A stretch of DNA of 64,000 nt from Treponema sp. (lineage in GTDB: Bacteria > Spirochaetota > Spirochaetia > Treponematales > Treponemataceae): NCBI GenBank assembly GCA_016288205.1, contig JAEEYO010000054.1, positions 62,001 through 126,000 on the forward strand, read 5' to 3'. Position numbers and translations under genes: made by a program. The notes beneath the pieces are model-generated. The model was not told where the DNA came from. It ran no database searches and worked only from the letters and a program-made list of their open reading frames with translations. Each line of letters begins with the position of its first letter. Position 1 is the stretch's first letter. Positions 3,156 through 62,706 of the stretch are shown one piece after another.

Positions 3156-6100
3156 ACCGTTACCCCCTTTTTGTCCAAAGAGTCCTTGTTCTCGTCTTCA
3201 TCGTCGTCGTCATCCCTCTTCCAGAACACAATCAGGAAGAAGATGAACAGTCCGAACAGTCCGGTTCCGCCAGCCACATAGGGCCACATTCCGCGACCCT
3301 TCTTTTCCTCGGCTGTGTCCACATCTGAAACCGGTGTTTTTTCTTCTATTATATTGTCATTTCTTACGCTTTCCTGAACCTGTGCGATCGGCTCCACAGC
3401 TTCCTCAATCTGCGGCTCCTCAATCACTTCGGGCTCCGCTTTTTTCACGCTGCTCGCGGCAAGTTTCTGTCTCTTGTCCTCACCCTTGGCAAGCAGGCTC
3501 TTCTTTTTCGCTTTCTCAGCCGCCCTTTCCTCAATGGATCTCTTTCCCTGCTCGCGGATTTTGTCCACTATGCTCACGTGCTGAATCTCCTCCAGTGTGT
3601 CCGCAGAAAGATAGGAGAACAGCGGGCTGGTGGGATCATCATCATTATATTCCATTTTGTTCCAATTTTCCAGTGCATATTGGGCATCTATGCGGTCCTG
3701 CTCCGCTTTTTTCTCCATCTCGATTTCCATCGCTATGGACTCTTCCGTGTCGTCGGAAAGAAGGCCGAGGTTGTCCTCATAAAGATAGGACTTGTCCTTG
3801 CCGTAGCTTTTCATCTCCTCTTCGTAGGTCTTCATTCCCGGAATGATTTTCGCGGTGTAGACTTCCTCAGGCACCCATTCGGACGAGGGAGAGTCGGTGA
3901 AACGAGGCACGTCCCTTTCCACCGTGGGAAGTGCGTTCAGGTAGGCAAGCTCCTCGCCGTACACGTCATCCTCATCATTTTCCTCGCCAGCGTTCAAGGC
4001 AGGTCCCAGGGCGGGTCCGAATGATGCGATGTCCTTTTTGCCCTTGTCTTCGGTAAGCAGGGAGCCGATGGGTGTGTCGGCAAAATCGTCAGTGTCATCG
4101 TCCAGGAGGGCGGCGAACACCTCTTCCTCGTCAAGGCCAAGCTCGGCAAGGAAGTCATCGGTACTTTCAATCACAACCTCGGGCGTGTCAAACTTCGGCA
4201 CGGCGCGGGATTTCAGCTCCTCCGGCTTTTCGGTCTTTTTGCTGGTGTCGGCCACAACTTCATCAATCAGGTCGCTGAAGATGTCGTCCTCTTCCTCATC
4301 ATCCCATGTGCTGCTCACAACAGGCCGTGTAGTCGTGGGCTGGGTGTATGTCGGTGTTGCTCCTGTTGCGGGCTGCTGTGTGGTTGTCGCCACGGTCTGT
4401 GTCGGCTGCGTATATGTGGTTGTGGTTGCAGGTGCGGGCTGCTGTGTTGTGGTCGTCACTGTCTGTGTTGGCTGAGTATATGTGGTTGTAGCCGTTGGTG
4501 CCGGCTGCTGGGTTGTCGTTGCCACTGTCGGTGACGGTTGTGCGTATGTGGTTGTGCTCGCTGGTGCGGGCTGCTGGGTTGTCGCCACTGTCGATGCCGG
4601 CTGAGTATATGTGGTTGTGGTCGCGGGTGCGGGCTGCTGTGTCGTTGCCACCGTCTGTGTTGGCTGAGTGTATGTGCTTACCGGGTCGGGTCGCAAGGTT
4701 GTTGTCGCTGCGGTCTGTGTCGGTTGTGCGTACGTGGTTGTGGCCGATGGTGCGGGCTGCTGGGTTGTGGTCGCCACGGTCTGTGTCGGCTGGGCGTATG
4801 TCGGTGTTGCTACAGTCGTGGGCTGCTGAGTCGTTGCCACGGTTTGAGTAGGCTGGGTATATGTCGGTGTGGCCACTGTCGTGGGCTGCTGTGTCGTTGC
4901 CACTGTCGGTGCCGGCTGGGTGTATGTCGGTGTTGCTACAGTCGTGGGCTGCTGAGTCGTTGCCACGGTTTGAGTCGGCTGAGTATATGTTGTTGTGGTA
5001 GCGGGTGCGGGCTGCTGTGTGGTCGCCACTGTCGGTGCCGGCTGTGTGTATGTCGGTGTTGCTACGGTCGCGGGCTGCTGCGTGGTTGCTACTGTCTGTG
5101 TCGGTTGTGTATATGTGGTTGTAGCCGTAGTTGCGGGCTGCTGGGTCGTTGCTACCGTCGAAGCCGGCTGAGTGTATGTGGTTGCTGGCGTGGGCTGCTG
5201 GATTGTAGTCGCCACGGTCGGTGTTGGCTGCGTATATGTCACTGTGGTTGCAGTCGCGGGCTGCTGTGTGGTTGCCACCGTCTGTGTAGGCTGGGTGTAT
5301 GTGCTTACCGGGTCGGGGCGCAGGGTTGTTGTCGCTGCGGTCTGTGTAGGCTGCGTGTATGTCGGTGTTGCTACAGTTGTGGGCTGCTGGGTCGTGGTCG
5401 CCGCAGTCTGAGTCGGTTGTGTATATGTGGTTGTGGTCACAGTCGCGGGCTGCTGCGTGGTTGCCAATGTCTGTGTCGGTTGTGTATATGTCGGTGTGGC
5501 CACTGTCGCGGGCTGCTGGGTTGTGGTTGCCACGGTCTGTGTAGGCTGCGTGTATGTCGGTGTGGTCGCGGGTGCGATAATGGGTGTGCTTGCGTCGCGG
5601 ATCTCAGTGCCGGTCTGTGCAATTCTCGGTGTGCTGGAATCCGGGGTCTCCACAATCGGCTGTGCAACGGAAACCGGGCTTGAGCTTACAGGCTGTGCTT
5701 CATCTGTAGGCTGTGAGACTTCAATCGTCGGAGCGGCGGGCTCGTGTGTTTCCTCCGTGGGCTGTGCGTTCTGCTCTTCCGGTGCGGAGTCCTCGCTGGA
5801 CTCATCCTTGGGCTGAGCCTCCACAATCTTCGGTGCGGCCGTTACGTTTGTGTCCGTGGGGAGCTGCGCTATCTCAATTTTCGGAGCGCTTACTACAGGT
5901 GTCTCCACGGTGGGCTGGGCTATTTCAACTGTCGGTGTGTTTACCGCGGGTGTGCTTACGGTTGTTGTTTCCTGTCTGGGCTGAGCCTCTTCAATTCTCG
6001 GTGTGCCAGCTACGGTTGTGTCCGTCGGGAGCTGCGCTATCTCAATTCTCGGTGCGCTTACTACAGGTGTTTCCACGCTGGTGGGCTGGGCTATTTCAAC

Positions 6101-9100
6101 TGTCGGTGTGTTTACCGCGGGTGTGCTCACGGGCGCTGTTTCCTGTCTGGGCTGGGCTTCCTCAATTCTCGGAGTGCCAGCTACGGTTGTGTCCGTCGGG
6201 AGCTGCGCTATCTCAATTCTCGGTGCGCTTACTTCATGTGTTTCCACGCTGGGCTGAGTGACTGCGACGGTCGGCGTACTTACGGCAGGCATTTCTGTGA
6301 CGGTCGGGGACTGCGCTATCTCAACTGTCGGTGCGCTTACCACGGGCATCTCAGCAACGGTGGGCTGGCTTATTGCGACTGTCGGTGTGCTTACCACAGG
6401 TGTCTCCACGCTGGTGGGCTGGGCTACCGCGACTGTCGGTGTATTTACGGCAGGAGATTCCGCCACGCTTGGCTCGCTTACCGCGACTGTCGGTGTATTC
6501 ACGGTCGGTGTGCTCACGGCAGGTGATTCTGCCACTGTGGGCTGGGTTGAGGCGGCCGGTGTGCTGGAGCTCTTGCTGCCTGTAGAAGTCGGCTTTGACC
6601 TTGTTACGAGCGATGACAAATCCTTTGACGGATCGCTTTTCTTCGTGGGAACATAGCGTCTCTCTTCCAGGGTCGGAGTGTCTTTGGTCGTGCTGCTCCG
6701 TGCGATCAAGTCATAGTCGCTCGCGATTACAGGCTCTGTGCTGTCGAAGGACATCTCCGGGAGTCTCAGCTGCGCAATCAGGCCGGGAAGCTCCTCCACG
6801 AGATTCTCATAATCATCCATCGCGGCATAGGGATTCGGGGGAAGAACCGCCGTCTTGTCTTCCTCACGGATTACGGCATCAGGACGGAGCATCACCGTGG
6901 GATCGTTCATGTCGGCAAGCTGCTCCAAAAGGGAATCAGCATTCTCGCCGAGGGACGAGCCCGGAACCGATGTGTTCAAATCAGCGATCGAAAATCCGCT
7001 TGAGTCGCTGCTGTCAAATCCGTCGTCATTATCGTCGAAGTCGCTGTCATCACCGTCGTTCGTAATTCCGCTTGAGATATTTCCTGTGTCCCACTTCGTC
7101 ATGGCAATGCGGTCGGCGAGGGAGAAGCTTCGTCCCTTGGTCTGCTCGAACGCACCCAGATAAGTATACTCGGCGGCAAGTGCGGGATTGCTCTGTCTCA
7201 CAATGTCATAGGCGGCATCACACTCGTCGTAATTCTCAAGCTCATAATAGCACCTTGAGATTCCCAGGACCGCAAGCTCGTTGTTCGGATCCTGCTCAAG
7301 AACCTTCCTGTACCACTCAAGCGCAATTGTATATTGCTGTCTCGCGAAATAGACGTTGGCCGTGTTCAGAAGCGACGGCAGATAGCCCTTGCGGCGTGCC
7401 CTCTTGAACTGGTCATCCGCCTCCACGAAAAGACCGTACTGACCGTACAGGATTCCAAGCTCGTTGCGGAGCTCCACCGTGTCATGTGCGGCAAGACGCG
7501 CGTTGTACTGGGCGACCACGGGAGAGATCTCGCGGGCAATCCACTGGTCCATGCTGTGCTGGAAAAGACGCGACACGATTTCCTTTTCGGGCATGGTGAA
7601 ATTCGCGCTCGCACCCGGAACGCTGACAGGCTCATAAATCTTCCAGGAATCCTCCATCGCATAGAAAGCGGCGGTACCGTCCTTGTAAGCCTGGTTCCAT
7701 TCCCTCGCACCCACGCGCCACGCACGGCTGAATCCCTCGTCGGTAAGCGTGATCTCAAGCGGAACCCATGCCTCCCCGTCGTGATTGATCAAGTTGTTGC
7801 TGTTCATGAGCGACTGTGCGGCTTCCTTCATGGTCATGCCGGAGTCAAAGGCAATGAAAATATGTCCCGGAATCGTGATGAACGCGGTCTTGATTCCCAC
7901 CGCCTCAAAAAGCGAGCAGGTCAAAATGGAAAGGTCGTCGCAGTCACCACCACGGTAAGTCAGCGTCTGGTACGGGAACTGGAGGAAGTCGATTGACGTG
8001 GATCCTACGTTGTCAGAGTAGGCCGATGAGGGGTCAATGACGTAGTTGATTCCGAACTGGTCAAGCGTCTCGAAGATTCCCATGGCGTACTGGATGTTCG
8101 GGGAGATTCCCATGCGCACGTTGTCACGCACGATCGAAGTGATGTACTTTGAGAACCAGAGTGCGGCGGGATCCTTGGATGAGACGAAAACGGAGGCGCG
8201 CCTGTCATCGTCCCAGCTCATTGAGTTTCGTCCGTAAACAGGAACCACCATCGCAATCGTCTTTTTCTTCTTCTGACCAAGATATGTGTACTCGATGATT
8301 ACGGAAGCCTCGGTGTTGGTCTTTTCCGTAAGATCAAGCATGCGCTCGTTGAAGAATGCCGTAAGCTCAGCGTCGAAGCTTTCACCCTTGCCGAGTTTTT
8401 CCCTGGTAGCACAGAGATTCGGCTGGCTCATGTACTGGGGCTGATAGAAACTCACCTTCACGTTGTCAATGGCAGAGTCCTCCTCGTTGGTGATTCCCAC
8501 GCTCGCGAAGGCGTTGTCCTTGTACCACGAGTAGAGCACCGGGAAAACAGGGAGCACTTCCTTGGTCTCCATCTTGATGTTGGTGGTGTTCGTAAAAGCC
8601 TGAGTCAGGTTGATTGTAAGTCCAGTTGAAACACCAGCGTCGGTCATAAGGGGATCCGGCTTGGCCACATAATGATTCGCGGCCGCTCCAGCCTCGACGG
8701 ACACCGTTGGGTTGATTCTGTATGTGAGCGAGATGTTGATTCCGCCCGAAAGCCCCGTAAGCACGCCGCCTGATTTTGACGCACGGTATCCTCCGACCTG
8801 CGCGCTCATGTTCAGTCCCCAGCGGTCGTTGATCGGAAGATGATATCCCGCACCGACACCTCCGTTAAGAAGCGTCGCGGAAGAGACGTTGGGCAGCGTG
8901 AGATTCTTATAGTCACCCTCGACGAAGAAGTCCAGGTTGTTTCCCATGCGGTAGGTCAGCTTGGCACCCACGCCGAAATCATACTGTACGCCGGTGGTTG
9001 AGCCGAACGCCTTGGACGCATTCGGGAAAAGGGTCAGAAGCACCTCGTCATCGCTCCATACAGGGAGTGTTCCGAGGCAGACCATCATTCCGGTGGCGAG

Positions 9101-18369: not shown

Positions 18370-20079
18370 ATGTACGGAGCAATTTTAGGTGACATTATAG
18401 GACAGCCGTTTGAGTTTGACAGGGGAAACAAGAGCAAGGACTTTCCCTTGTTCAGCAGCAGACCGCGGTTCACGGACGACACAGTTATGACGATTGCAAT
18501 CTGCGACGGCATTTTAAGGGCAGGTCCTGGTGCCGACGAGAGCACAATGAAAAATGAGATGATAAAAAGCATGCAGCGTTGGGGACACAAATACCCTCAC
18601 GCGAGCTACGGACAGAGGTTCTATCTGTGGCTTGCATCGGAGGACACAAAACCATACGGAAGCTATGGGAACGGATCCGCCATGCGTGTAAGTTCCGTGG
18701 GATGGCTGTTTAAGACTCTGGAGCGCACAAGGGAAGTCGCCAGGTGGTCCGCTGAAATCACGCACAATCACCCTGAGGGAATAAAGGGAGCGGAATCAAG
18801 TGCCGCCGTAATCTGGATGGCAAGGAACGGATATTCCAAAAATCAAATAAAAGAATATGTAATCAAAGAGTTCGGATATGACCTGAGCCGCACCTGCGAT
18901 GAAATCAGGCCGCAATATCACCATGTCGAAAGCTGTCAGGAAACTGTGCCCGAGGCAATCACCGCTTTTCTTGAGGGCAGGGATTTCGAGGACGTAATCA
19001 GGACGGCTGTGAGTCTTGGCGGAGACTGCGACACTCTCACGGACATAGCGGGAGGAATGGCGGAGGCATTTTACGGAATCCCTGAGGAGCTTGAGACAAA
19101 GTGCATTGAGTACACTGCGGACGACATGCACAAGATTTTTGCGGAATTTGAAATGCGGAGAATCCCGGCGAAATTTGAAAAGCACGAGACTGCGACAAAG
19201 AAAATGCAGGCCTCTGACATAAGCGCGATTCTGAAAGGTCTCAGCAAAAAAAGGGTCAAAAAGGAAATCATAAAAATGAGCCAAAGGGAAGTGAACACTC
19301 TGACAATGGACAGCACCCAGGAATTATGCTCAAGCCTGATTTCACTCCGCAAATCCATAGACGACTCCATTAAAAAAGAATATGTCGTTTTTGAGGACGG
19401 AGATTTTTCCGTCGGACCTCTTACGGCGAATGAAAAAATGGAAATCATCGTCTCTGGAAGAAGAACGTTTGAGGCAGCTGAAAACTACAGGGGAAAGAAA
19501 ATCTGCTGCCTTGATTTCGCGAACAATCACAACATGGGAGGCTCGCCATGGACCTCTAACGCGCAGGAGGAAGCCATGTGCAGGATCTCGACCCTGTATC
19601 CGTGCCTTGCCGCAAAGGAGAATGAGTTCTACGAAAAGCACTGGAAGGAATTTGAGGACGGCATGATTGACGACATGGGAAGCGACGACCTCATCTATAT
19701 TCCGGGCGTGACTGTGTTCAAGACTGACGAAGCGATTCCCAAGCTTAAAAAGGAGGAGGACTGGTTTAAAACTGACGTAATCGTCTCGGCGGCCCCAGTT
19801 CTGGATTATGATTATGACAGCGATCAGTACCGCTCCATTATGACAAAGAGGATAAAGCGCATTTTGGATGTGGCGGCAAAGGAAAAAGTTGAGGTGCTGA
19901 TTTTGGGCGCGTTCGGCTGCGGAGCATTCCGTAATCCCCCGGAGATTGTCGCTGATATTTTTGCATCGCTCATACGCGGCTATGATTTTGAGACCGTGGA
20001 GTTCGCGGTATTTTGCAGGGACGACAAGACGAACTTTGAGGCCTTTGAGTCAAGATTTTCCCACCGGCACAACCCTTGA
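18370..20079 (+). CDS. Fusion: ADP-ribosylglycohydrolase + TIGR02452/PARG-like domain
   Basis: 569 residues that join two different ADP-ribose hydrolase folds. Residues 1-265 are a DraG/ADPRH-type domain: MYGAILGDIIGQPFE, TDDT (35-38) and GGDCDT (217-222), which supply the metal-binding Asp residues. After a basic helical linker (about 270-310), residues 315-569 match the TIGR02452/DUF2263 family related to bacterial PARG and macrodomains: FANNHNMGG (383-391), NAQEE (397-401, catalytic Glu pair) and LILGAFGCGAFRNPP. ADPRH enzymes remove ADP-ribose from amino-acid side chains, PARGs cleave poly(ADP-ribose) or ADP-ribose esters, so one chain may clear two kinds of linkage. SD is GGGGG before ATG. 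No ADP-ribosyltransferase or toxin is adjacent. Cytoplasmic: no signal peptide. Confidence 0.92.
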   Translation: MYGAILGDIIGQPFEFDRGNKSKDFPLFSSRPRFTDDTVMTIAICDGILRAGPGADESTMKNEMIKSMQRWGHKYPHASYGQRFYLWLASEDTKPYGSYGNGSAMRVSSVGWLFKTLERTREVARWSAEITHNHPEGIKGAESSAAVIWMARNGYSKNQIKEYVIKEFGYDLSRTCDEIRPQYHHVESCQETVPEAITAFLEGRDFEDVIRTAVSLGGDCDTLTDIAGGMAEAFYGIPEELETKCIEYTADDMHKIFAEFEMRRIPAKFEKHETATKKMQASDISAILKGLSKKRVKKEIIKMSQREVNTLTMDSTQELCSSLISLRKSIDDSIKKEYVVFEDGDFSVGPLTANEKMEIIVSGRRTFEAAENYRGKKICCLDFANNHNMGGSPWTSNAQEEAMCRISTLYPCLAAKENEFYEKHWKEFEDGMIDDMGSDDLIYIPGVTVFKTDEAIPKLKKEEDWFKTDVIVSAAPVLDYDYDSDQYRSIMTKRIKRILDVAAKEKVEVLILGAFGCGAFRNPPEIVADIFASLIRGYDFETVEFAVFCRDDKTNFEAFESRFSHRHNP

Positions 20080-22850: not shown

Positions 22851-23741
22851 TTACAGCTGCTTTTCGAAAATATCGTGTTGCTCGTCAAGAAGCTCCATCA
22901 CGTGGTCAATCATCTTCTGCTTCGGATCCTCCTCATCGGCGGGGAGAGTGGCAAGATAGTTCTGTCTGAAGGGCTTGCACTCAATCACTTTGCTTGCGGA
23001 GAAAATCTGCTTGGCAGGCTCGATCAGGTCGTTGAGCATGTCGTCGTCCTGAATCTCAAGCGGGCATCCGTTAATCGTCACGAGAATCATTATGTCGAAA
23101 AGCCTCAGGTAGCTGTCAATCTCCCTCAGCCCGCGTTTTGTCTCTGGCTTTCCCGGACGGTATCTTGTTCCCGAGGGGAATACCAGAATCACTTCTCCGC
23201 GTCTCTTGCACTCGTCCATCGCCCTCATGGCAGCGAAGTTGATTTTGCGTGCCTTCTGTTCCTCAGCCTGAATCTCCTCCTCGCTTACGGCCTGCTCCTC
23301 CTTTTTGTTGAGAGAGCGCGTCGGATAGATTACGACCCTGGTGAAACTCTCGGCAAAGGCCCTGACAACGGGATTCTCCTCGTTCAGCTTCATTCCCGCC
23401 ACGGCCACGATTTTTTTGGAAAGGTCGGAAAGCTCCTTTTTCTCAGAACGCTCAAGCAGATAGCAGAGTCCCGGAAGGTCGGTGTTTGAATAATGCTCCA
23501 TCAGAATGAGGCCGCGTTTTCCCGCCTGCACCTGATTGTAAAAATCAAGGAAATTTTCCTCGGCTCCAAGATGACTGTCGGGAAGCATGTTGTCCGTAAC
23601 CAGTTTGTCCATGAATTTACGTGTGACCGGATTCGCCACCTGATAAACATTCGTCTCGTCTATTTTTGCGGCGACAGTAGAATGTTTGGCCACTTCCTTA
23701 AAAAAATCAGCATATCTTTCACGAAGACTTGGTTTGCTCAT
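22851..23741 (-). CDS. PlsC-like glycerolipid acyltransferase
   Basis: 296 residues. Motifs of the glycerophosphate acyltransferase superfamily: HYSNTD (H-x4-D, about residue 82) for acyl transfer, and FPSGTRYRPG (about 205), which corresponds to the FPEGTRS block that binds glycerol phosphate. No clear membrane helix, so probably membrane-associated. It likely acylates a glycerolipid or lysolipid during phospholipid synthesis, but a sugar or ornithine acceptor cannot be excluded. SD GAGGAG before ATG. A strong promoter lies about 90 nt upstream. The M18 peptidase follows on the same strand. Confidence 0.82.
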   Translation of the reverse strand: MSKPSLRERYADFFKEVAKHSTVAAKIDETNVYQVANPVTRKFMDKLVTDNMLPDSHLGAEENFLDFYNQVQAGKRGLILMEHYSNTDLPGLCYLLERSEKKELSDLSKKIVAVAGMKLNEENPVVRAFAESFTRVVIYPTRSLNKKEEQAVSEEEIQAEEQKARKINFAAMRAMDECKRRGEVILVFPSGTRYRPGKPETKRGLREIDSYLRLFDIMILVTINGCPLEIQDDDMLNDLIEPAKQIFSASKVIECKPFRQNYLATLPADEEDPKQKMIDHVMELLDEQHDIFEKQL

Positions 23742-23829
23742 TGATTTCTCCTCGCACGCTCAAAAACTTAAAGCTCTCTCCAGAACTTCACTTTCACTGT
23801 GCAGTGACATTTTTCACACACTAAATGAT

Positions 23830-23869
23830 ATTTTAAATACAAATCGAACGGATGTCAACCATTTGGGAG
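23830..23869 (-). promoter_or_regulatory. Promoter of acyltransferase gene with weak copy of the shared palindrome
   Basis: On the minus strand TTGACA (23858-23853), 17 nt, TAAAAT (23835-23830). A CTCCCAAATGGTTG segment (23869-23856) overlaps the -35 and matches the palindrome found at 12325, 42053 and 62779 at 10 of 14 positions. The promoter is well supported, the operator weakly. Confidence 0.5.
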
Positions 23870-23870
23870 C

Positions 23871-25463
23871 TTATTGCAAGTTGTTAAGACCTTTAACAAA
23901 TCGCTCTATCTTGCATTCGTGATTTTTCGAATCTTCGTCGTAATTTATACCAACAAAAAGCAAATCACCAGAATAATGGGAAAGGGAATCAAAATATCTC
24001 TTATCCTTTATTTGGTTTATGGCAGAATCAGCACAGGCATTTCTTTTAAGTTCAATTATCATTGCAGGAAGATTTTGGACAAAGGGTATAAATACGACAT
24101 CCGCAAAGCCCTTGCCGCTTGTCAGCTCTTTTATGACGGTATATTTGTTCAATGCGTATATAAAGGCAAGATAAATTGCTGATTGCAAAGCATCTTCATT
24201 ATTATACGAACGATTGCTTGTTACATGTATGTGGCTTACATCCAACGCTTTTGCAACGGCAGATTCGTTTCCATTTAGGGTTTCTGCCAATAATGCCTTT
24301 GACTGCTGGATAATGGCATTAGTGACGGCGTAATCAGAATTGGCTTCAATTGCGTTATACCATTGCTGCCTGATTTCTTTATTGGGGATTTTGCAAGTTC
24401 CCTCTGTGGCATTATATGCAAGATATCCAATATGAATCAGATAGGTAAAAACATCGCTCTTTGATGAAAATGAATCCATTGTATTCATAAAACGCGTTAC
24501 ATTAACATCTATGCTTTCTCCAGCCAACATTTTTATGACATCTTCTTTTGTACCGTCAAAATTCATCCTTATGCGTTCCTCTATTGCAGCATAAGTTGAA
24601 GTCCGGCTCCAGTAATCGGAAAATGTTTTGGACCTCATGCACATAACGACTGACTCAGGATTATAAATTTCAAAGCCATGCTGATTATATCCGTCATACC
24701 ATCGCTTGCATTCCTCATAATCAACATTATATCTTTTGCAAAGTTCCTGCACCTCGTCCGAAGTAAAGCCCACGAATTCCGCAAGTTCATGCGCATCCAA
24801 AATTGTAAGCTCGTCAAAATTGTTCAGTTTTGATTGAATTCGATCCCGCACAACTGGAAGGATTCCAGTAAGATAGGCAAAAGAAATTGCTGGCCTGAGT
24901 GTATTGCTTTTAAAAAGTCCGTTCAAAAAACCCAAGTATTCAGAAAAAAGCTTGTCGCTAACTTTTTCACGCACCAGGACATCATATTCATCCATGAAAA
25001 TGACGAATGTTTCTTTTGTTGCGGTATAGATTTTTTGAATGCATTCACCAAGAGTATCGCTTTCTTCAAAAACAACAGAAGTAAAAACTTCCTTCAACTC
25101 ATTGCGAATAAGGCCTGTAAGCTTCTTTAAAAGATTATCCTTATCTGCAATATTCTGATACTCGCTGTTCATGTCGATTTGAATCACATTAAATTTATTC
25201 AGGTTGCTTTCAAAATCAGGGGCGGATGCAATTTTGTACGGTGCAAAAAGATCTTTCGAATCACAACCCTTTGAATAATATGCCGCAAGCATATTCGTTG
25301 TAATAGTCTTTCCAAATCGACGTGGACGGGAAACACACACATACTTGTTGTCAGTCGCCATAAACTGATTTATAACCGAAATCATTCCCGTTTTATCCAC
25401 ATAAATAGGTCGAGTAAGAGTCGCCTTGAAATTTACATTATCAGGATTAAGATATATGCCCAT
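23871..25463 (-). CDS. AAA-ATPase-like protein with C-terminal PD-(D/E)XK nuclease domain
   Basis: 530 residues of the AAA-ATPase_like (PF09820) plus PDDEXK_9 (PF08011) family, which is expanded in spirochetes and gut bacteria. N-terminal Walker A-like RPRRFGKT (about 43-50), Walker B FVIFMDEYD (about 153-161), and near the C-terminus FADVVF followed by MIIELK and a Gln/Lys helix, the D...ExK nuclease signature. Role unknown; links to mobile elements or defence have been proposed for the family. The gene has no SD; a TATAGT box (25476-25471) ends 7 nt before the ATG, so its mRNA may be leaderless. The sequence is AT-rich compared with the genes to its right on the map, suggesting acquisition. 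Confidence 0.87.
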   Translation of the reverse strand: MGIYLNPDNVNFKATLTRPIYVDKTGMISVINQFMATDNKYVCVSRPRRFGKTITTNMLAAYYSKGCDSKDLFAPYKIASAPDFESNLNKFNVIQIDMNSEYQNIADKDNLLKKLTGLIRNELKEVFTSVVFEESDTLGECIQKIYTATKETFVIFMDEYDVLVREKVSDKLFSEYLGFLNGLFKSNTLRPAISFAYLTGILPVVRDRIQSKLNNFDELTILDAHELAEFVGFTSDEVQELCKRYNVDYEECKRWYDGYNQHGFEIYNPESVVMCMRSKTFSDYWSRTSTYAAIEERIRMNFDGTKEDVIKMLAGESIDVNVTRFMNTMDSFSSKSDVFTYLIHIGYLAYNATEGTCKIPNKEIRQQWYNAIEANSDYAVTNAIIQQSKALLAETLNGNESAVAKALDVSHIHVTSNRSYNNEDALQSAIYLAFIYALNKYTVIKELTSGKGFADVVFIPFVQNLPAMIIELKRNACADSAINQIKDKRYFDSLSHYSGDLLFVGINYDEDSKNHECKIERFVKGLNNLQ

Positions 25464-25512
25464 GTGTATTACTATAGCACAGAAGTCGGAAAAATGCTAC
25501 AAACTGCCCCCA

Positions 25513-25848
25513 TCAATTTTCATGCGTAAGATCTTTTAAAAAGGAAATCATATATTCAGACTGGTGCGGCGTAAGACGGTGGAAAATTCGCAATAAATCC
25601 CTATCCGTTAAAATTGTATTATTGATTTCTGGGTTGAAAAAATATTCAGGCGAAACATTCAGATATTCACAAATTTTCAGAAAACTCGCTATAGTCGTGG
25701 AGCATTTTCCAGTTTCAATCTTATTTATATAAGTTTCATTCTGTCCAAGAGCAAGACTCATTTCTCTTGCAGAAACTTTTCGCTCATTTCTCAAAAAGCG
25801 AAGGCGGTCTCTGAAAAACTCTTCTGTAATAATGCTATATTCTTCCAT
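25513..25848 (-). CDS. XRE-family helix-turn-helix regulator
   Basis: 111 residues. Residues 12-66 form a Cro/CI-type HTH: RFLRNERKVSAREMSLALGQ, then NETYINKIETGKCS as recognition helix, then the last helix LKICEYLNVSPEYFF. The C-terminal 45 residues are helical with no known domain and may dimerise. It is divergent from the small gene at 25955, and the space between holds a perfect palindrome and repeated TTGCTT half sites that are good candidates for its own binding. Its neighbour downstream is the AAA-ATPase/nuclease gene (49 nt away), so it may control that gene too. Confidence 0.9.
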   Translation of the reverse strand: MEEYSIITEEFFRDRLRFLRNERKVSAREMSLALGQNETYINKIETGKCSTTIASFLKICEYLNVSPEYFFNPEINNTILTDRDLLRIFHRLTPHQSEYMISFLKDLTHEN

Positions 25849-25914
25849 TTTTATAGCATTATAAGCTATATTTTGCTTGAAAAATTGCTTTTTATACTTT
25901 ATAATATACTATAT

Positions 25915-25931
25915 ATTGCTTTAAAAGCAAT
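25915..25931. promoter_or_regulatory. 17-nt palindrome, candidate XRE operator
   Basis: ATTGCTTTAAAAGCAAT is a perfect palindrome around one central A. Two more TTGCTT half sites lie at 25873 and 25885. All fall in the 106-bp divergent gap between the XRE gene and the 54-residue gene, which also contains TATAAT-like boxes on both strands. Confidence 0.5.
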
Positions 25932-25954
25932 AACTTACAAAACAAGGAGTTTTT

Positions 25955-26119
25955 ATGGCACCACAGAAAAAGTTTATCATCACCTATCAGATTCCCGGGA
26001 GCAACGTAATTCATAAAACCAACTCCATCAACGCATCCTCGATAATCGAAGCCAAAAACAAATTCAAGGCAAGCAATCCCACAAAAAAGATTATCGCCTG
26101 TGTCAAAGTTCTGGGGTGA
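25955..26119 (+). CDS. Small protein of 54 residues, unknown function
   Basis: Begins MAPQKKFIITYQIPGSNV and ends KKIIACVKVLG. The SD AAGGAG lies 6 nt before the ATG, which strongly supports translation. The pattern KFIITYQ...INASSIIEAKNKFKASNP looks like a compact alpha/beta protein, and I have the impression of similar small conserved proteins in treponemes, but I cannot name a family. It is the first gene to the right of the XRE palindrome and may be under its control. Confidence 0.7.
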   Translation: MAPQKKFIITYQIPGSNVIHKTNSINASSIIEAKNKFKASNPTKKIIACVKVLG

Positions 26120-26180
26120 GGATGATAAAAACTGATTTGGAGTTTAATTTATTATGACGGAGAAAAAATAGGTTTACGGA

Positions 26181-26480
26181 ATGATTGAAGAATTTACAAA
26201 GAATAACATTGAAGATATTCCTAAATTTGGAGTAGGCAGGTCATTCAGTGTTGAGGTCTACGAAGCAGAAACAGGAAAAAAACTTGGTTCCTATAAGGCT
26301 TGCTGTACTAAAAAGAATTCATTTGCCTTAGAACTTGAAAATGAGGATAAAGACACTGATTCTACAATAAAAGGCTTTCATATCGAAGAATATATGATAG
26401 ATGAAGAAAAGTCTACAGATACTGAACTTGTATTCAGAGACATTAGCAAAGCTTCATTGTTCATAGTGAGACATTGTTAG
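26181..26480 (+). CDS. Hypothetical protein, 99 residues
   Basis: Starts MIEEFTKNNIEDIPKFGVGR. Acidic, soluble, no signal peptide or membrane helix, and rich in short beta strands (SFSVEVYEAETGKKLGSYKA), like a small beta-barrel or immunity-type protein. The SD is weak. It sits in the AT-rich island between the 54-residue gene and a 475-residue unknown. I recognise no family. Confidence 0.6.
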   Translation: MIEEFTKNNIEDIPKFGVGRSFSVEVYEAETGKKLGSYKACCTKKNSFALELENEDKDTDSTIKGFHIEEYMIDEEKSTDTELVFRDISKASLFIVRHC

Positions 26481-26540
26481 AAAAAGAATTATTTGGTTTG
26501 AAGAATATGATTTTTTGAACTATTGATGGAGGAAATGAAG

Positions 26541-27965
26541 ATGGGATTTTTAGGAGATTTATTAGCGAAAGGATTCTCAATGCTTGAGGGAGAAGAAACA
26601 GGAGAAGTGTTTATAGGAAATGGAACGGGTGAAAAAAGAGAACTTTTTGAAAAAATACTTGCAAGGTGGAATGAAATTTTTAGAAGAAATGATTTTCTTA
26701 CGAATTCGACAGCCTACATATTGCAAGAAACTGTAAAACTTCCTGTGTACTTTCAACTTTTACTTATAGGAATTCCTGACCATGATAATGGTGGTGCTTA
26801 TGAAAAAGCACTGAGAAATGCTGAAAAAAGAATTATACAAATAAAATCGGGAGAAGAAACAATTGATTTTGCTTATTTGAATGAACTGGCCACTTGTTCT
26901 GAACACATATCATCAATAGATTATACGACATCATGTAATACAGGTGTTATGCACAGGCCGTTCTATTATTTTCGATACAAAAGGGATAAAGAGGTATTTA
27001 CCTTTCTTTATAAACCTTATATGGATCAACGAGGAGAAGGAATTAAGGTATGTCTCAAAGAAACTGAACAGGATGAGTTGACGTTAGGTACTCAAATAGG
27101 AAAAGAATTTGTTGAAACATCTATTCGGTGGCAACCTGAGCCTACGTGGGATCATGTAGGAAGTACTCCAGAAGGATTCTTCAAGAAGCTTGATAGAAGT
27201 GATGTCTATAAAAATTTGAAACATTTTATTGATAATTTAAAATCGTTTGAATCGAAAGCACGAAAACTGAATTATGATCAAACATGGCTATCTAAAAACA
27301 AAGAGAAATATATTCAAGTCAAAACTGAAGCGGATAAAAGCTTGTTTTATGATTTGCTTGATAAATGGAATGATATTTTTCAGAAAAAATGGGAATTGGA
27401 AAAATATGACGAAAATGGAAAAACCGTTTTTTATAAAGCGGATAAGTCTTATATTAAGTTTAATGCTGATGTAAGATTCTTTCAAAATCCAGAAAAGATT
27501 GTAAAAAAACGAAATATTAACTCTCTTGAAAAAGATTTCATATACTATCCTGATAAAGAATCAAATTCAGAAAAATTTTTAAGATTTTATTTAAATGGAA
27601 AAGACAACTCATTTGTTTTAGCAGTTAAGTCTGAATCCATTTCAAATGAGTTGAAAACCGATTCCAAACTGGGGTATTCTGATACACCTTATTTTATAAA
27701 CTTTGAAGAAGCGTGCAGAGAAATTTTTCAAAGACCTCAATTAAATAAGAATATGACTGAATGTACTTTGGAATTTGCAAAAATGATGCTGAATGAGTGG
27801 TCTAGATTGAACCAGGAGAAGAAAGAACGAAAGGAAAAAATTCGGCAAGAGGAGAAGGCTAGACAACAAAAATTGGAACAAGAGGAAAAAGAAAGAAAGT
27901 TAAAATTTGAACAAGAAGAAATAAAGAAAACCCAAGAGGCAAGAAGTGAAATTGCTGATTGGTAA
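26541..27965 (+). CDS. Hypothetical protein with C-terminal Glu/Lys coiled coil
   Basis: 474 residues from ATG at 26541, chosen because GGAGG (26528-26532) lies 8 nt before it; ATGs at 26526 and 26535 and a TTG at 26523 are in frame but badly spaced. Two similar halves can be seen: each has an ARWNEIF or DKWNDIF motif, followed by a beta-rich region with aromatic residues (RNDFLTNSTAYIL versus KKWELEKYDENGKTVFY), suggesting internal duplication. The last 50 residues (from about 425) are a continuous charged coiled coil (EKIRQEEKARQQKLEQEEKE). No signal peptide or membrane helix. Very AT-rich and codon use differs from the flanking chromosome. Function unknown. Confidence 0.75.
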   Translation: MGFLGDLLAKGFSMLEGEETGEVFIGNGTGEKRELFEKILARWNEIFRRNDFLTNSTAYILQETVKLPVYFQLLLIGIPDHDNGGAYEKALRNAEKRIIQIKSGEETIDFAYLNELATCSEHISSIDYTTSCNTGVMHRPFYYFRYKRDKEVFTFLYKPYMDQRGEGIKVCLKETEQDELTLGTQIGKEFVETSIRWQPEPTWDHVGSTPEGFFKKLDRSDVYKNLKHFIDNLKSFESKARKLNYDQTWLSKNKEKYIQVKTEADKSLFYDLLDKWNDIFQKKWELEKYDENGKTVFYKADKSYIKFNADVRFFQNPEKIVKKRNINSLEKDFIYYPDKESNSEKFLRFYLNGKDNSFVLAVKSESISNELKTDSKLGYSDTPYFINFEEACREIFQRPQLNKNMTECTLEFAKMMLNEWSRLNQEKKERKEKIRQEEKARQQKLEQEEKERKLKFEQEEIKKTQEARSEIADW

Positions 27966-27978
27966 GATGAGGTGATTT

Positions 27979-28416
27979 ATGGATGAAAATATTGACGAAG
28001 CAGCTGAATATGAAGCAGAAATTCCTTCCGAAACAAAAAAAGTTTCCGAAGAGGAATTGGTTGAAAAATATCAAGAGCACTTTGACAAAAACATTGCTTT
28101 TAAACTTTTGAAAAAACTACGAAAAGCTACTCGTAATAAACCAAAGGCAATAGCTGGTACAGCAGGTGCGATTGTTTCTGTTTTGGGAAAACTTCTTTCG
28201 GCATTGGATAATCCGGCAACTCCAGCTCATACCAAGGCATTGATTATTGGCGCGATTGGCTACATTCTTTTACCCCTTGATCTTATTCCAGATTTTACAC
28301 CGATAATCGGTTATGGGGATGATCTTGCAAGTGCGGCAAGAGTTGTAGCAGGGGTAGCAGCATACAGCACATTCTCTTTGGAAGAGTTGGATAAAATAAT
28401 CGACATGGAAAAATAA
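27979..28416 (+). CDS. YkvA/DUF1232-family membrane protein
   Basis: 145 residues. The C-terminal half has the DUF1232 signature LIIGAIGYILLPLDLIPDF (about 89-107) followed by GYGDDLASAARVV, a short hydrophobic hairpin next to an Asp-rich turn. The N-terminal half is charged and helical. Members are small membrane-associated proteins of unknown biochemical role, sometimes next to stress or defence genes. SD GAGGTG lies 5 nt before ATG; the upstream coiled-coil gene ends 13 nt away, so they form an operon. Confidence 0.85.
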   Translation: MDENIDEAAEYEAEIPSETKKVSEEELVEKYQEHFDKNIAFKLLKKLRKATRNKPKAIAGTAGAIVSVLGKLLSALDNPATPAHTKALIIGAIGYILLPLDLIPDFTPIIGYGDDLASAARVVAGVAAYSTFSLEELDKIIDMEK

Positions 28417-55241: not shown

Positions 55242-55328
55242 GGAGCGATGGCAGAGTGGTCGAACGCGGCGGTCTTGAAAACCGTTATACTCTTACGGGT
55301 ATCGGGGGTTCAAATCCCTCTCGCTCCG
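55242..55328 (+). tRNA. tRNA-Ser (anticodon TGA)
   Basis: 87 nt with long variable arm. Acceptor GGAGCGA/TCGCTCC, discriminator G, anticodon loop CTTGAAA (TGA, reads UCA), T arm GGGGGTTCAAATCCC. No encoded CCA. Confidence 0.95.
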
Positions 55329-55360
55329 TACTTTTGAGCCTCCGGGCTTCGAAAGGCTTT

Positions 55361-55445
55361 GGAGGCGTCGTATAGCGGTATTACAACGGTTTGCTAAACC
55401 GTCGGTGCAGCAATGCCCGGGCAGGTTCGACTCCTGTCGCCTCCG
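55361..55445 (+). tRNA. tRNA-Ser (anticodon GCT)
   Basis: 85 nt, class II. Acceptor GGAGGCG/CGCCTCC, discriminator G, anticodon loop TTGCTAA (GCT, reads AGC/AGU), long variable arm. No encoded CCA. Confidence 0.93.
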
Positions 55446-55454
55446 CTTAATTTT

Positions 55455-55529
55455 GAGACTGTAGCTCAGCTGGATTAGAGCATCACCCTGCGGAGGTGAG
55501 GGTCGCACGTTCGAATCGTGTCAGTCTCG
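55455..55529 (+). tRNA. tRNA-Arg (anticodon GCG)
   Basis: 75 nt, class I. Acceptor GAGACTG/CAGTCTC, D stem GCTC/GAGC, anticodon stem TCACC/GGTGA with loop CTGCGGA (GCG, reads CGC), T arm GCACGTTCGAATCGTGT. Most bacteria read CGN with an ACG anticodon edited to inosine, so GCG is unusual. Confidence 0.9.
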
Positions 55530-55564
55530 TAACATTACAGGTTTTTTGTTATAATTTGATTTTT

Positions 55565-55652
55565 GGAAAGATGCGAGAGCGGTCGATTCGGACGGTCTCG
55601 AAAACCGTTATACCATTTTTTGGTATCGGGGGTTCGAATCCCCCTCTTTCCG
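55565..55652 (+). tRNA. tRNA-Ser (anticodon CGA)
   Basis: 88 nt, class II. Acceptor GGAAAGA/TCTTTCC, discriminator G, anticodon loop CTCGAAA (CGA, reads UCG), long variable arm. A TATAAT at 55550-55555 may be a second promoter. Confidence 0.93.
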
Positions 55653-55806
55653 GATCCTTCCAAAACAAAGCATTTTCGTCCAGTCTTTTGATGCAAGCGG
55701 TTTCAGTCCTACTCTGGTGCGAAGGCAAGCGAAAATCCCTGTACTGAAAGACCTCTAAAGACTTCTGTCATTCTATGATCGCTGTTTTTAGGGGCGAAAA
55801 TTTATT
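55653..55806 (+). other. Spacer between the last two tRNA-Ser genes
   Basis: 154 nt without a tRNA or an open frame. Nothing recognised. Confidence 0.4.
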
Positions 55807-55893
55807 GGAAAGATGTCCGAGTGGTTTAAGGTCCACGCTTGGAAGGCGTGCATAGGCGAAAGTCTATCGGGGGTTCGAATCCCCCTCTTTCCG
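55807..55893 (+). tRNA. tRNA-Ser (anticodon GGA)
   Basis: 87 nt, class II. Acceptor GGAAAGA/TCTTTCC identical to that of the CGA tRNA, anticodon loop TTGGAAG (GGA, reads UCC/UCU), T arm CGGGGGTTCGAATCCCCC. No encoded CCA. Confidence 0.95.
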
Positions 55894-55919
55894 GATTGTA
55901 ATAGAAAGCTATGGATGAT

Positions 55920-60370: not shown

Positions 60371-60470
60371 GAGCCTAGATGCTTTGCACATTTCAGCCAG
60401 AAAACCCCGCCAGATCCGGAAGGAAGCAACGGTATTTGGATTGGAGTGGTGCCGAAGATTATCTAGGCTC
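60371..60470 (+). ncRNA. ffs: Signal recognition particle RNA, small bacterial type
   Basis: About 100 nt. The ends GAGCCTAGAT and ATCTAGGCTC pair. The core GCCAGATCCGGAAGGAAGCA (60409-60428) carries the conserved domain IV sequence with the GGAA tetraloop, and the symmetric-loop side CAACGGT follows. Seven T after 60470 end transcription. A TATAAT (60359-60364) lies 6 nt before the start. It binds Ffh for co-translational targeting. Confidence 0.93.
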
Positions 60471-60565
60471 TTTTTTTCAGGGACAGTCCTGCCGTAACTT
60501 TTTCCGCACAGCAACATTTTAAAGATGGAGACAAATCCGGTCAGAGCAAACTTTAAGGAGAGACT

Positions 60566-61605: not shown

Positions 61606-62706
61606 TTACTGAGCACTCACGGCACAGTTGCGTCCGGCTTCCTTCGCCTTGTACAATGCAATGTCCGCGAGCTTGATGAGTTTTTCGGGCGCGACTCCCG
61701 GAGTAATCTCGGTGGTGGAATATCCCGCGCTGATTGAGATGGAGCCGTTGAGTCCGTTTTCAAAAGGAATGCTCATCCTGTGGACTTCCTCCCTGAGCTC
61801 ATCTACCATGGAAGCAAAATCCTCCTTGCTGATTCCGGTTCCCACGCCGGTAAATTCCTCACCTCCATACCGGCAGAAAAGCAGGTCCTTCTTTTTTCCG
61901 AAATCAGTCAGCAGGGCACCGAGGGAGATAAGGCATGCGTCACCGGCCTGATGTCCGTAAGTGTCGTTGTACCTCTTGAAAAAATCTATGTCAATCATAA
62001 CGATGTTGATAATGGTTCCCGGCTCCTGCTGCAACTGCTCCATGCGGCTGAAAAGAACACGGCGGTTTGAGAGTCCGGTCAAAAAATCAGTGTCGCGCTG
62101 CATAATCAGTATGCGGTCCTTCTTGAAGCTTTCCATGCGTATGTAACGGAAATATCCTCCGAGAATCACACCGAACACAAGGAACACTCCAGTGTCCAGC
62201 AAATCCATGACGACGAGATCAGTTGATTTGAAAATGAAAATCAGAACCGAGTGGACGGCGAAGAAAAAGGTGCTGAACAGATTGATTCTGACGCTGTGAT
62301 CCAAAAACAGCATGGGGAGGACAATCAGCAGGCAGGGGAAAGTCACGCTCGCATGGGCAAGTCCCTTCGGCGAATAGATGCTGGTGAATATGCCAAGGGT
62401 ATAAAAGATGGCCGTTGTGAAATATATCAGTGGAAGCGAAATTTTTCTAACCTTCGGAGATTTCAGGCGGAAAATGAAAAAGAGGGCCGCCGTGGCAAAA
62501 GTATTGCTGAAATAATAGGTCACGTAAAGCAGTCCGTAATGCGTAAAGATGCCCAAAATGCTTGTGATAAGAAGAACAAAGGCTATTGAAATAGTAAGAT
62601 AATGAAAGTTGCCGGTGTTTGACTCCCGCACGGCTTCCTTATTTTCTTCATAGGCGGCCTTTTCTTTACTGATGTTCATCCAAGCAAAAATAGTTGGTAA
62701 CGTCAT
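61606..62706 (-). CDS. Membrane diguanylate cyclase (GGDEF)
   Basis: 366 residues. Six membrane helices between about 32 and 190, then a GGDEF domain: MIDIDFFKRYNDTYGHQAGD (metal and guanine contacts) and RYGGEEF at 281-285, a canonical active signature. It should make c-di-GMP from two GTP. No inhibitory RxxD is clear at the usual distance. The membrane part resembles 6TM sensor modules of unknown ligand. The promoter is close: -10 ends 6 nt before ATG 62706, with no SD, so the mRNA may be leaderless; a downstream ATG at 62679 is a possible alternative. The promoter region carries the shared palindrome. Confidence 0.94.
   Translation of the reverse strand: MTLPTIFAWMNISKEKAAYEENKEAVRESNTGNFHYLTISIAFVLLITSILGIFTHYGLLYVTYYFSNTFATAALFFIFRLKSPKVRKISLPLIYFTTAIFYTLGIFTSIYSPKGLAHASVTFPCLLIVLPMLFLDHSVRINLFSTFFFAVHSVLIFIFKSTDLVVMDLLDTGVFLVFGVILGGYFRYIRMESFKKDRILIMQRDTDFLTGLSNRRVLFSRMEQLQQEPGTIINIVMIDIDFFKRYNDTYGHQAGDACLISLGALLTDFGKKKDLLFCRYGGEEFTGVGTGISKEDFASMVDELREEVHRMSIPFENGLNGSISISAGYSTTEITPGVAPEKLIKLADIALYKAKEAGRNCAVSAQ

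Follow-up and report, generated by a model that had tools for sequence, protein, structure and literature searches.

We describe an accessory gene module lying in an AT-rich island of a Treponema sp. genome (assembly GCA_016288205.1). The island occupies positions 23871 to 28416 of a 64,000-nucleotide stretch of contig JAEEYO010000054.1 (contig positions 62,001 to 126,000), which we call the window. It is composite, consisting of a core at 25513-28416 that encodes a helix-turn-helix (HTH) protein, proteins of 54, 99 and 474 residues (p54, p99 and p474) and a YkvA membrane protein, together with a nuclease-ATPase gene. Comparison with loci in other genomes (L numbers below) shows that the core, judged by its sequence, is one version of an accessory module assembled from shuffled parts and carried by a minority of Treponema genomes. 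The anatomy of this module is well supported. For its role, we tentatively propose that the core acts in conflict or defence, is inducible and works beneath the membrane.

The initial annotation had placed sharp shifts in composition and codon use near 23.9 and 28.4 kb, and the GC profile, the GC content at third codon positions (GC3) and codon divergence all bear this out. GC is 0.348 in the island against 0.495 in the whole window, and the 4546-bp stretch with the lowest GC in all 64 kb lies at 23601-28146 (0.346), the next non-overlapping minimum being 0.464. Along the profile, values of about 0.48-0.53 fall to 0.33-0.40 near 23.6-23.9 kb and are at least 0.46 again past 28.4 kb. Among the 44 called genes, the four lowest GC3 values (0.25-0.35; median 0.62) belong to the four genes of the island that encode 100 amino acids (aa) or more. 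The island is nevertheless heterogeneous: the AAA gene has a GC of 0.374 and a codon divergence of 0.24, while the tested core genes range over 0.32-0.39 and 0.46-0.49. All six genes originally proposed are present (Table 1), and Pfam matches confirm the AAA-ATPase/PD-(D/E)XK, XRE and YkvA assignments, the XRE protein matching HTH_19 (PF12844, E 9.7e-11) and PF01381 (E 2.7e-9). No island protein matched a housekeeping family in Pfam, NCBIfam, PADLOC or PHROG, and p54, p99 and p474 have no convincing family in these collections.

The layout noted at the outset, a divergent regulator with small genes and a membrane protein, recurs as a module in other genomes. The start is conserved at L035, which keeps the order HTH-p54-p99-p474 with identities of 75, 83, 48 and 48 %, the repressor copy standing in the same place. 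The individual parts are rare. BLAST finds p474 in 2 of 97 relatives, its own genome included; a two-row p474 profile matches that genome alone among 392 genomes of the phylum, and a scan of genome contigs with p474 gave nothing useful. Within the genus, p99 occurs in 2 of 196 genomes and p54 in 17 of 200 (profile at E<=0.01), both counts including the window's own genome; a W-D-E-I-F profile matches 14 of 200 and the YkvA profile 24 of 200 at E<=1e-10, among which ten score better than 1e-55. A wider p54 profile matches 5 of 296 phylum genomes, one of which (G264) belongs to another genus of the family. These low counts indicate that the parts are sporadic and not vertically universal, so that presence or absence among relatives is horizontally variable. 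A divergent HTH gene lies directly beside p54 in 12 of the 18 readable p54 loci (the window, L035, L058-L071, L073 and L149; L072 is left out, its p54 frame lacking a usable start, and matches at L074 and L075 were discarded as spurious). It is absent from that position at L060, L061, L070, L073 and L149, and at L062 p54 follows YkvA in the same module. Across versions, the module carries YkvA, PH-like, transmembrane (TM), SHOCT, TM2-like, J-domain and Zn-ribbon proteins.

On the sequence comparison, one version has been gained or lost as a unit, as a near-exact empty site shows. At L059 (genome G373), a 3120-bp segment at positions 5798-8917 with a GC of 0.358 encodes YkvA, a 619-aa protein, p54 and an HTH protein; at L181 (genome G035) about 98 unrelated bases take its place, and the flanking DNA of the two loci is 90 % and 94 % identical. 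The same site at L180 and L182 is occupied by a different divergent-HTH operon, whose products are one TM and one TM+SHOCT protein, and by an AAA_14/DUF4143 gene. By comparison of these four loci, the site, whose flanking genes we take to be of Trk and ACT type, is a hotspot where modules of this kind replace each other. Neither a target duplication nor a recombinase was seen at the L059/L181 site, and insertion of a mobile element with target duplication was accordingly rejected. A plasmid search with the Trk protein of L059 showed only that this protein is a common one. In the island itself, direct repeats look like chance. The genes flanking the window's copy, among them PlsC, are not neighbours in relatives, so an empty site for this copy is not definable. 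Beside the L059 module lies an ORF6N gene that matches the PADLOC defence candidate PDC-S05 (E 1.1e-118).

The gap between the HTH gene and p54 looks like a genetic switch. Two of the three exact GCNTWWWANGC matches in the 64 kb (25856 and 25918) fall in this gap as O1 and O3, and O2 lies midway, 31 bp from each and within the best promoter-like site, although such sites are not clearly more numerous in the region than in shuffled sequences. Repressors are of at least two types, MEEYS (type 1: window, L035, L079, L084, L088) and MFRDN (type 2: L058, L059, L062-L065). The O1-O3 spacing is 62 bp in all five type-1 copies, some sites having one mismatch, and it stays constant although the downstream genes differ; L079 and L088 are near relatives, so the five copies represent fewer than five independent events. 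For type 2, a palindrome near ACCGAWATWTCGGT occurs three times at 27-32-bp steps, with at most three mismatches, in all four loci tested (L058, L059, L062, L063). Each repressor type is found with p54, which argues that parts have been exchanged. We presume that the three-palindrome array is akin to the lambda OR region. The HTH protein would act at three sites that face the same side of the DNA and so repress both the p54 operon and the gene that encodes it, as phage CI/Cro proteins do, and the operon would then be silent until a signal lifts repression.

The large proteins of the module vary at the front and agree at the back. The two similar halves ascribed to p474 are real but faint: they share a 28-residue stretch around W-N-[ED]-I-F that was equalled by one of 500 shuffles, and profiles match both halves (the E-values of one of these searches refer to a small set of open reading frames, ORFs). 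Stretches resembling W-[DN]-E-I-F occur in p474 and at L058, L059, L061, L062, L082/L114, L085, L086, L115 and L137-L139; they were read directly, with profiles backing part of them, and L069 counts for its tail only. The N-termini differ, including MG[FIL]-type amphipathic-looking starts, PH-like segments, which were read from the sequence and have no Pfam match, and others. At the C-terminus, an acidic-hydrophobic tail, [FLIM][DAN][DSN][WLF], ends all 13 complete, otherwise dissimilar large proteins; among 398 other ORFs with 100 aa or more it ends only three, namely two orthologues of the 13 and one SHOCT-type protein at a p54 locus. Searches of PDB sequences returned nothing useful. Separately, small proteins of two different modules (L036, 758-1003; L079, 4825-5022) share the ending G-F-T-x-F-G-x-D-E-F-G-I-[ND]-D-I-Q.

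YkvA belongs to PF06803 with E 2.8e-13 and 49.8 bits against a cut-off of 23. It is small and hydrophobic, and the copies in the module are 68-75 % identical to each other. Around the close YkvA subfamily, at 15 distinct loci (13 matched loci, the window and L115; a weak Kangiellaceae match was left out), a tailed large protein stands beside YkvA in ten and p54 in six. Our literature search on DUF1232/YkvA, with PMC10924467 among its results, listed no described function. Directly after YkvA, L079, L084, L085 and L088 encode a 75-aa protein that bears two cysteine motifs resembling zinc ribbons, and a similar one occurs at L067. Longer YkvA relatives of 219-277 aa at L116-L121 end with D-M-W-[DN]-A-I-x-x-[LI]; this tail is conserved, and several of the proteins accompany a 380-460-aa protein ending in a zinc ribbon, suggesting a sister system with a tail of its own.

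For p54, AlphaFold2 predicts a beta-beta-alpha-beta fold with a mean predicted local distance difference test score (pLDDT) of 87.6. The model superposes on T7 Gp2 (4lk0; Z 7.4, 1.3 A over 48 residues) and on YkzG (4njc; Z 6.8, 1.4 A over 46 residues), both tied within 1 Z with unrelated beta-beta-alpha-beta folds such as ribosomal protein chains and PaaB. In a comparison with viral models, p54 has weak matches to numerous tiny phage proteins, two among those listed being called RNA polymerase inhibitor. Sequence profile searches gave nothing firm and no match to Gp2 or YkzG. In view of these ties and of the profile searches, a polymerase-binding role of Gp2/RpoY type, as suggested by the model, is a lead only.

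Table 1. Features of the AT-rich island and its predicted switch, in window coordinates
Feature	Position	Strand	Remarks
AAA-ATPase_like/PDDEXK_9 gene	23871..25463	-	Pfam; inside island, probably outside module
HTH (XRE/Cro-CI type) repressor gene, divergent from operon	25513..25848	-	PF12844, PF01381; L035 copy
Palindrome O1 (GCNTWWWANGC), operator-like	25856..25866	.	Exact match; overlaps repressor-gene -10 box (TATAAT)
Promoter-like TTGAAA-17-TATAAT for p54 operon	25877..25905	+	11/12 consensus matches
Palindrome O2, operator-like	25887..25897	.	One mismatch; between -35 and -10 of p54 promoter
Palindrome O3, operator-like	25918..25928	.	Exact match; just downstream of p54 -10 box
p54, 54-aa beta-beta-alpha-beta protein	25955..26119	+	17/200 genus genomes; AlphaFold2 model
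p99, 99-aa protein without known family	26181..26480	+	48%-identical L035 copy, same order
p474: MGFLG amphipathic-looking N-terminus, two weakly similar W-[DN]-E-I-F domains, coiled coil, tail EIADW	26541..27965	+	
YkvA/DUF1232 membrane protein (P0006)	27979..28416	+	PF06803; most conserved late module gene

The nuclease-ATPase (P0001) is the only island protein in which PF09820 (E 1.1e-28, 100.9 bits, cut-off 26.1) and PF08011 (E 2.9e-9, 37.3 bits, cut-off 25.5) both score above their cut-offs. The initial annotation had grouped it with the other island genes, a link that proves to be positional only. This genome has seven PF09820 genes, of which the island gene is one dispersed paralogue; the gene is absent from the other module cassettes read, and its codon use differs from that of the core. 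It was therefore rejected as a part of the module. At L035 an ABC permease lies beyond the HTH gene instead, and the ATPases near some modules (L062, L180) are of the AAA_14/DUF4143 kind, a family distinct from PF09820. Elsewhere in the window, a single protein (18370-20079) fuses an ADP-ribosylglycohydrolase (PF03747) with a microbial PARG catalytic domain (PF10021) and thus unites two types of ADP-ribose removal. A cluster of five tRNAs (55242-55894) includes four serine tRNAs with differing anticodons, and a small signal recognition particle RNA lies at 60373-60471.

Conflict or defence fits best because the module is exchanged as a unit, shares a hotspot with a defence candidate, has a repressor switch and combines a membrane protein with scaffold-like proteins. 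Once the operon is induced, the variable large protein, p474 in this version, would lie under the inner membrane by way of its amphipathic N-terminus, a place that PH-like N-termini may take in other versions, and would oligomerise through its coiled coil. Through its conserved C-terminal tail it may dock to a shared partner, for which YkvA and a host protein are candidates. The membrane component would be YkvA, and p54 would be a constant small partner, either an adaptor or a binder of the RNA-polymerase type. The likely outcome would be a membrane-centred defence or conflict response, with protection against envelope stress ranked second. In its boldest form, which we consider improbable, the proposal describes a modular immunity chassis that has not been described before. 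Its rear part (W-D-E-I-F domain, coiled coil and acidic-hydrophobic C-terminal docking tail) would stay constant, while the front ends that sense the membrane (an amphipathic MGFLG helix, PH-like domains or others) would be exchangeable and would feed a common YkvA membrane effector. A three-operator CI-like switch would keep the whole silent, and a Gp2/RpoY-like p54 would act on host or phage RNA polymerase.

Several observations weigh against a defence role or against the unity of the module. In PADLOC 2.0, five of the six island proteins have no match and the HTH protein matches generic regulator models only; eight of ten other module proteins scanned are likewise without a clear match. Some copies are incomplete: L061 lacks an adjoining HTH gene, and L079, L084 and L088 lack p54. 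The tail motif was derived from the same 13 proteins that display it, and one member of the repeat family (L140/L141) has the W-D-E-I-F stretch without the tail. The model of the C-terminal half of p474 (pLDDT 64.6) has no clear fold match and was too poor for a fold call, its top structural matches being mostly coiled coils. The ORF6N gene is also present without the module at L181, so its proximity need not mean joint function. Hints of defence come from other copies only. A PDC-S05 gene adjoins the module at L059, and a tail-bearing protein of 756 aa at L115 matches BnzA over residues 14-103 (E 7.1e-9). Bunzi needs BnzA and BnzB together; no window protein matches either, and only the L115 protein gave a BnzA match. 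Of the suggestion that the island could be a defence or conflict module, the recurring, horizontally variable module thus stands; the window proteins contain no defence family, and the role is plausible.

Among the alternatives, an envelope-stress module survives best, and we regard it as possible though rather unlikely. Here p474 as a submembrane scaffold and YkvA would protect or repair the inner membrane upon membrane damage, following the logic of phage shock protein (PSP) systems. The proteins that accompany the various versions suit such a role, as does a proposal, made in a PSP survey, that SHOCT-like domains anchor disparate proteins at the inner leaflet (PMC11237479). However, no PspA, Toastrack or LiaF Pfam match was found in the island or in the other module proteins scanned, the gene content is more variable than one would expect if this were a housekeeping stress response, and most genomes lack the module.

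We consider a toxin-antitoxin or addiction unit improbable. In such a unit the HTH protein would be the antitoxin and p54 or YkvA a membrane or transcription toxin, which would agree with the divergent HTH gene adjoining small proteins and with the size and hydrophobicity of YkvA. The HTH gene, however, does not share an operon with a candidate toxin, HTH types swap between modules that have the same p54, and toxin-antitoxin models gave only generic HTH matches far below cut-off. Similarly doubtful is the remnant of a prophage or conjugative element, of which a repressor region and accessory genes would persist. The CI-like operator array and the low GC speak for it. Against it, the island contains no integrase, transposase or structural gene, searches of viral contigs with p474, p99, p54 and YkvA as single proteins and with two alignments found no relatives at the sensitivity of the tool, tblastn found no relative of p474 in phage or plasmid records, and no duplication is visible at the empty site. 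Very improbable is restriction-like or nuclease defence in which the AAA-ATPase/PD-(D/E)XK protein would be the driver and the remaining genes its accessories. The nuclease does lie in the same AT-rich stretch, but its paralogues, its absence from the other modules read and its distinct codon use, all described above, speak against this reading.

Our search of the literature on DUF1232/YkvA, SHOCT, YkzG/Gp2 and Bunzi found no paper describing this module, and accessory immunity and stress modules of spirochaetes appear little described. Laboratory-host tests would have sufficiently concrete starting points in the parts list, exchange unit, operator sites and shared C-terminal tail. Should the tail prove to be a docking signal, a partner shared by many proteins that are otherwise unrelated would come to light. 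YkvA/DUF1232 would gain a defined genetic context.

Several parts of the module resemble known systems and also depart from them. The window shares with the lambda CI/Cro switch a small HTH protein, divergent overlapping promoters and three operator-like palindromes on one helical face at 31-bp steps; unlike lambda, it controls an accessory operon without lysogeny genes, and its operator binding is predicted. PSP-type submembrane systems likewise pair a membrane protein with a cytosolic scaffold and have SHOCT and Zn-ribbon partners, as sister modules do here, whereas no PSP family was detected in this module, which is horizontally variable. The N-terminus of the L115 protein resembles BnzA of Bunzi, and the PDC-S05 gene adjoins the L059 module, while the window proteins match neither. 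The p54 model superposes on the RNA-polymerase-binding fold of T7 Gp2 and YkzG (RpoY); in contrast to a clear case of that fold, the match is tied with unrelated folds and has no counterpart in sequence. Finally, P0006 is a member of the YkvA/DUF1232 family above cut-off, and the Treponema subfamily is set apart from the family at large by a charged, conserved N-terminal part around K-Y-Q-x-H-F-D-K-N and by its recurring genetic company.

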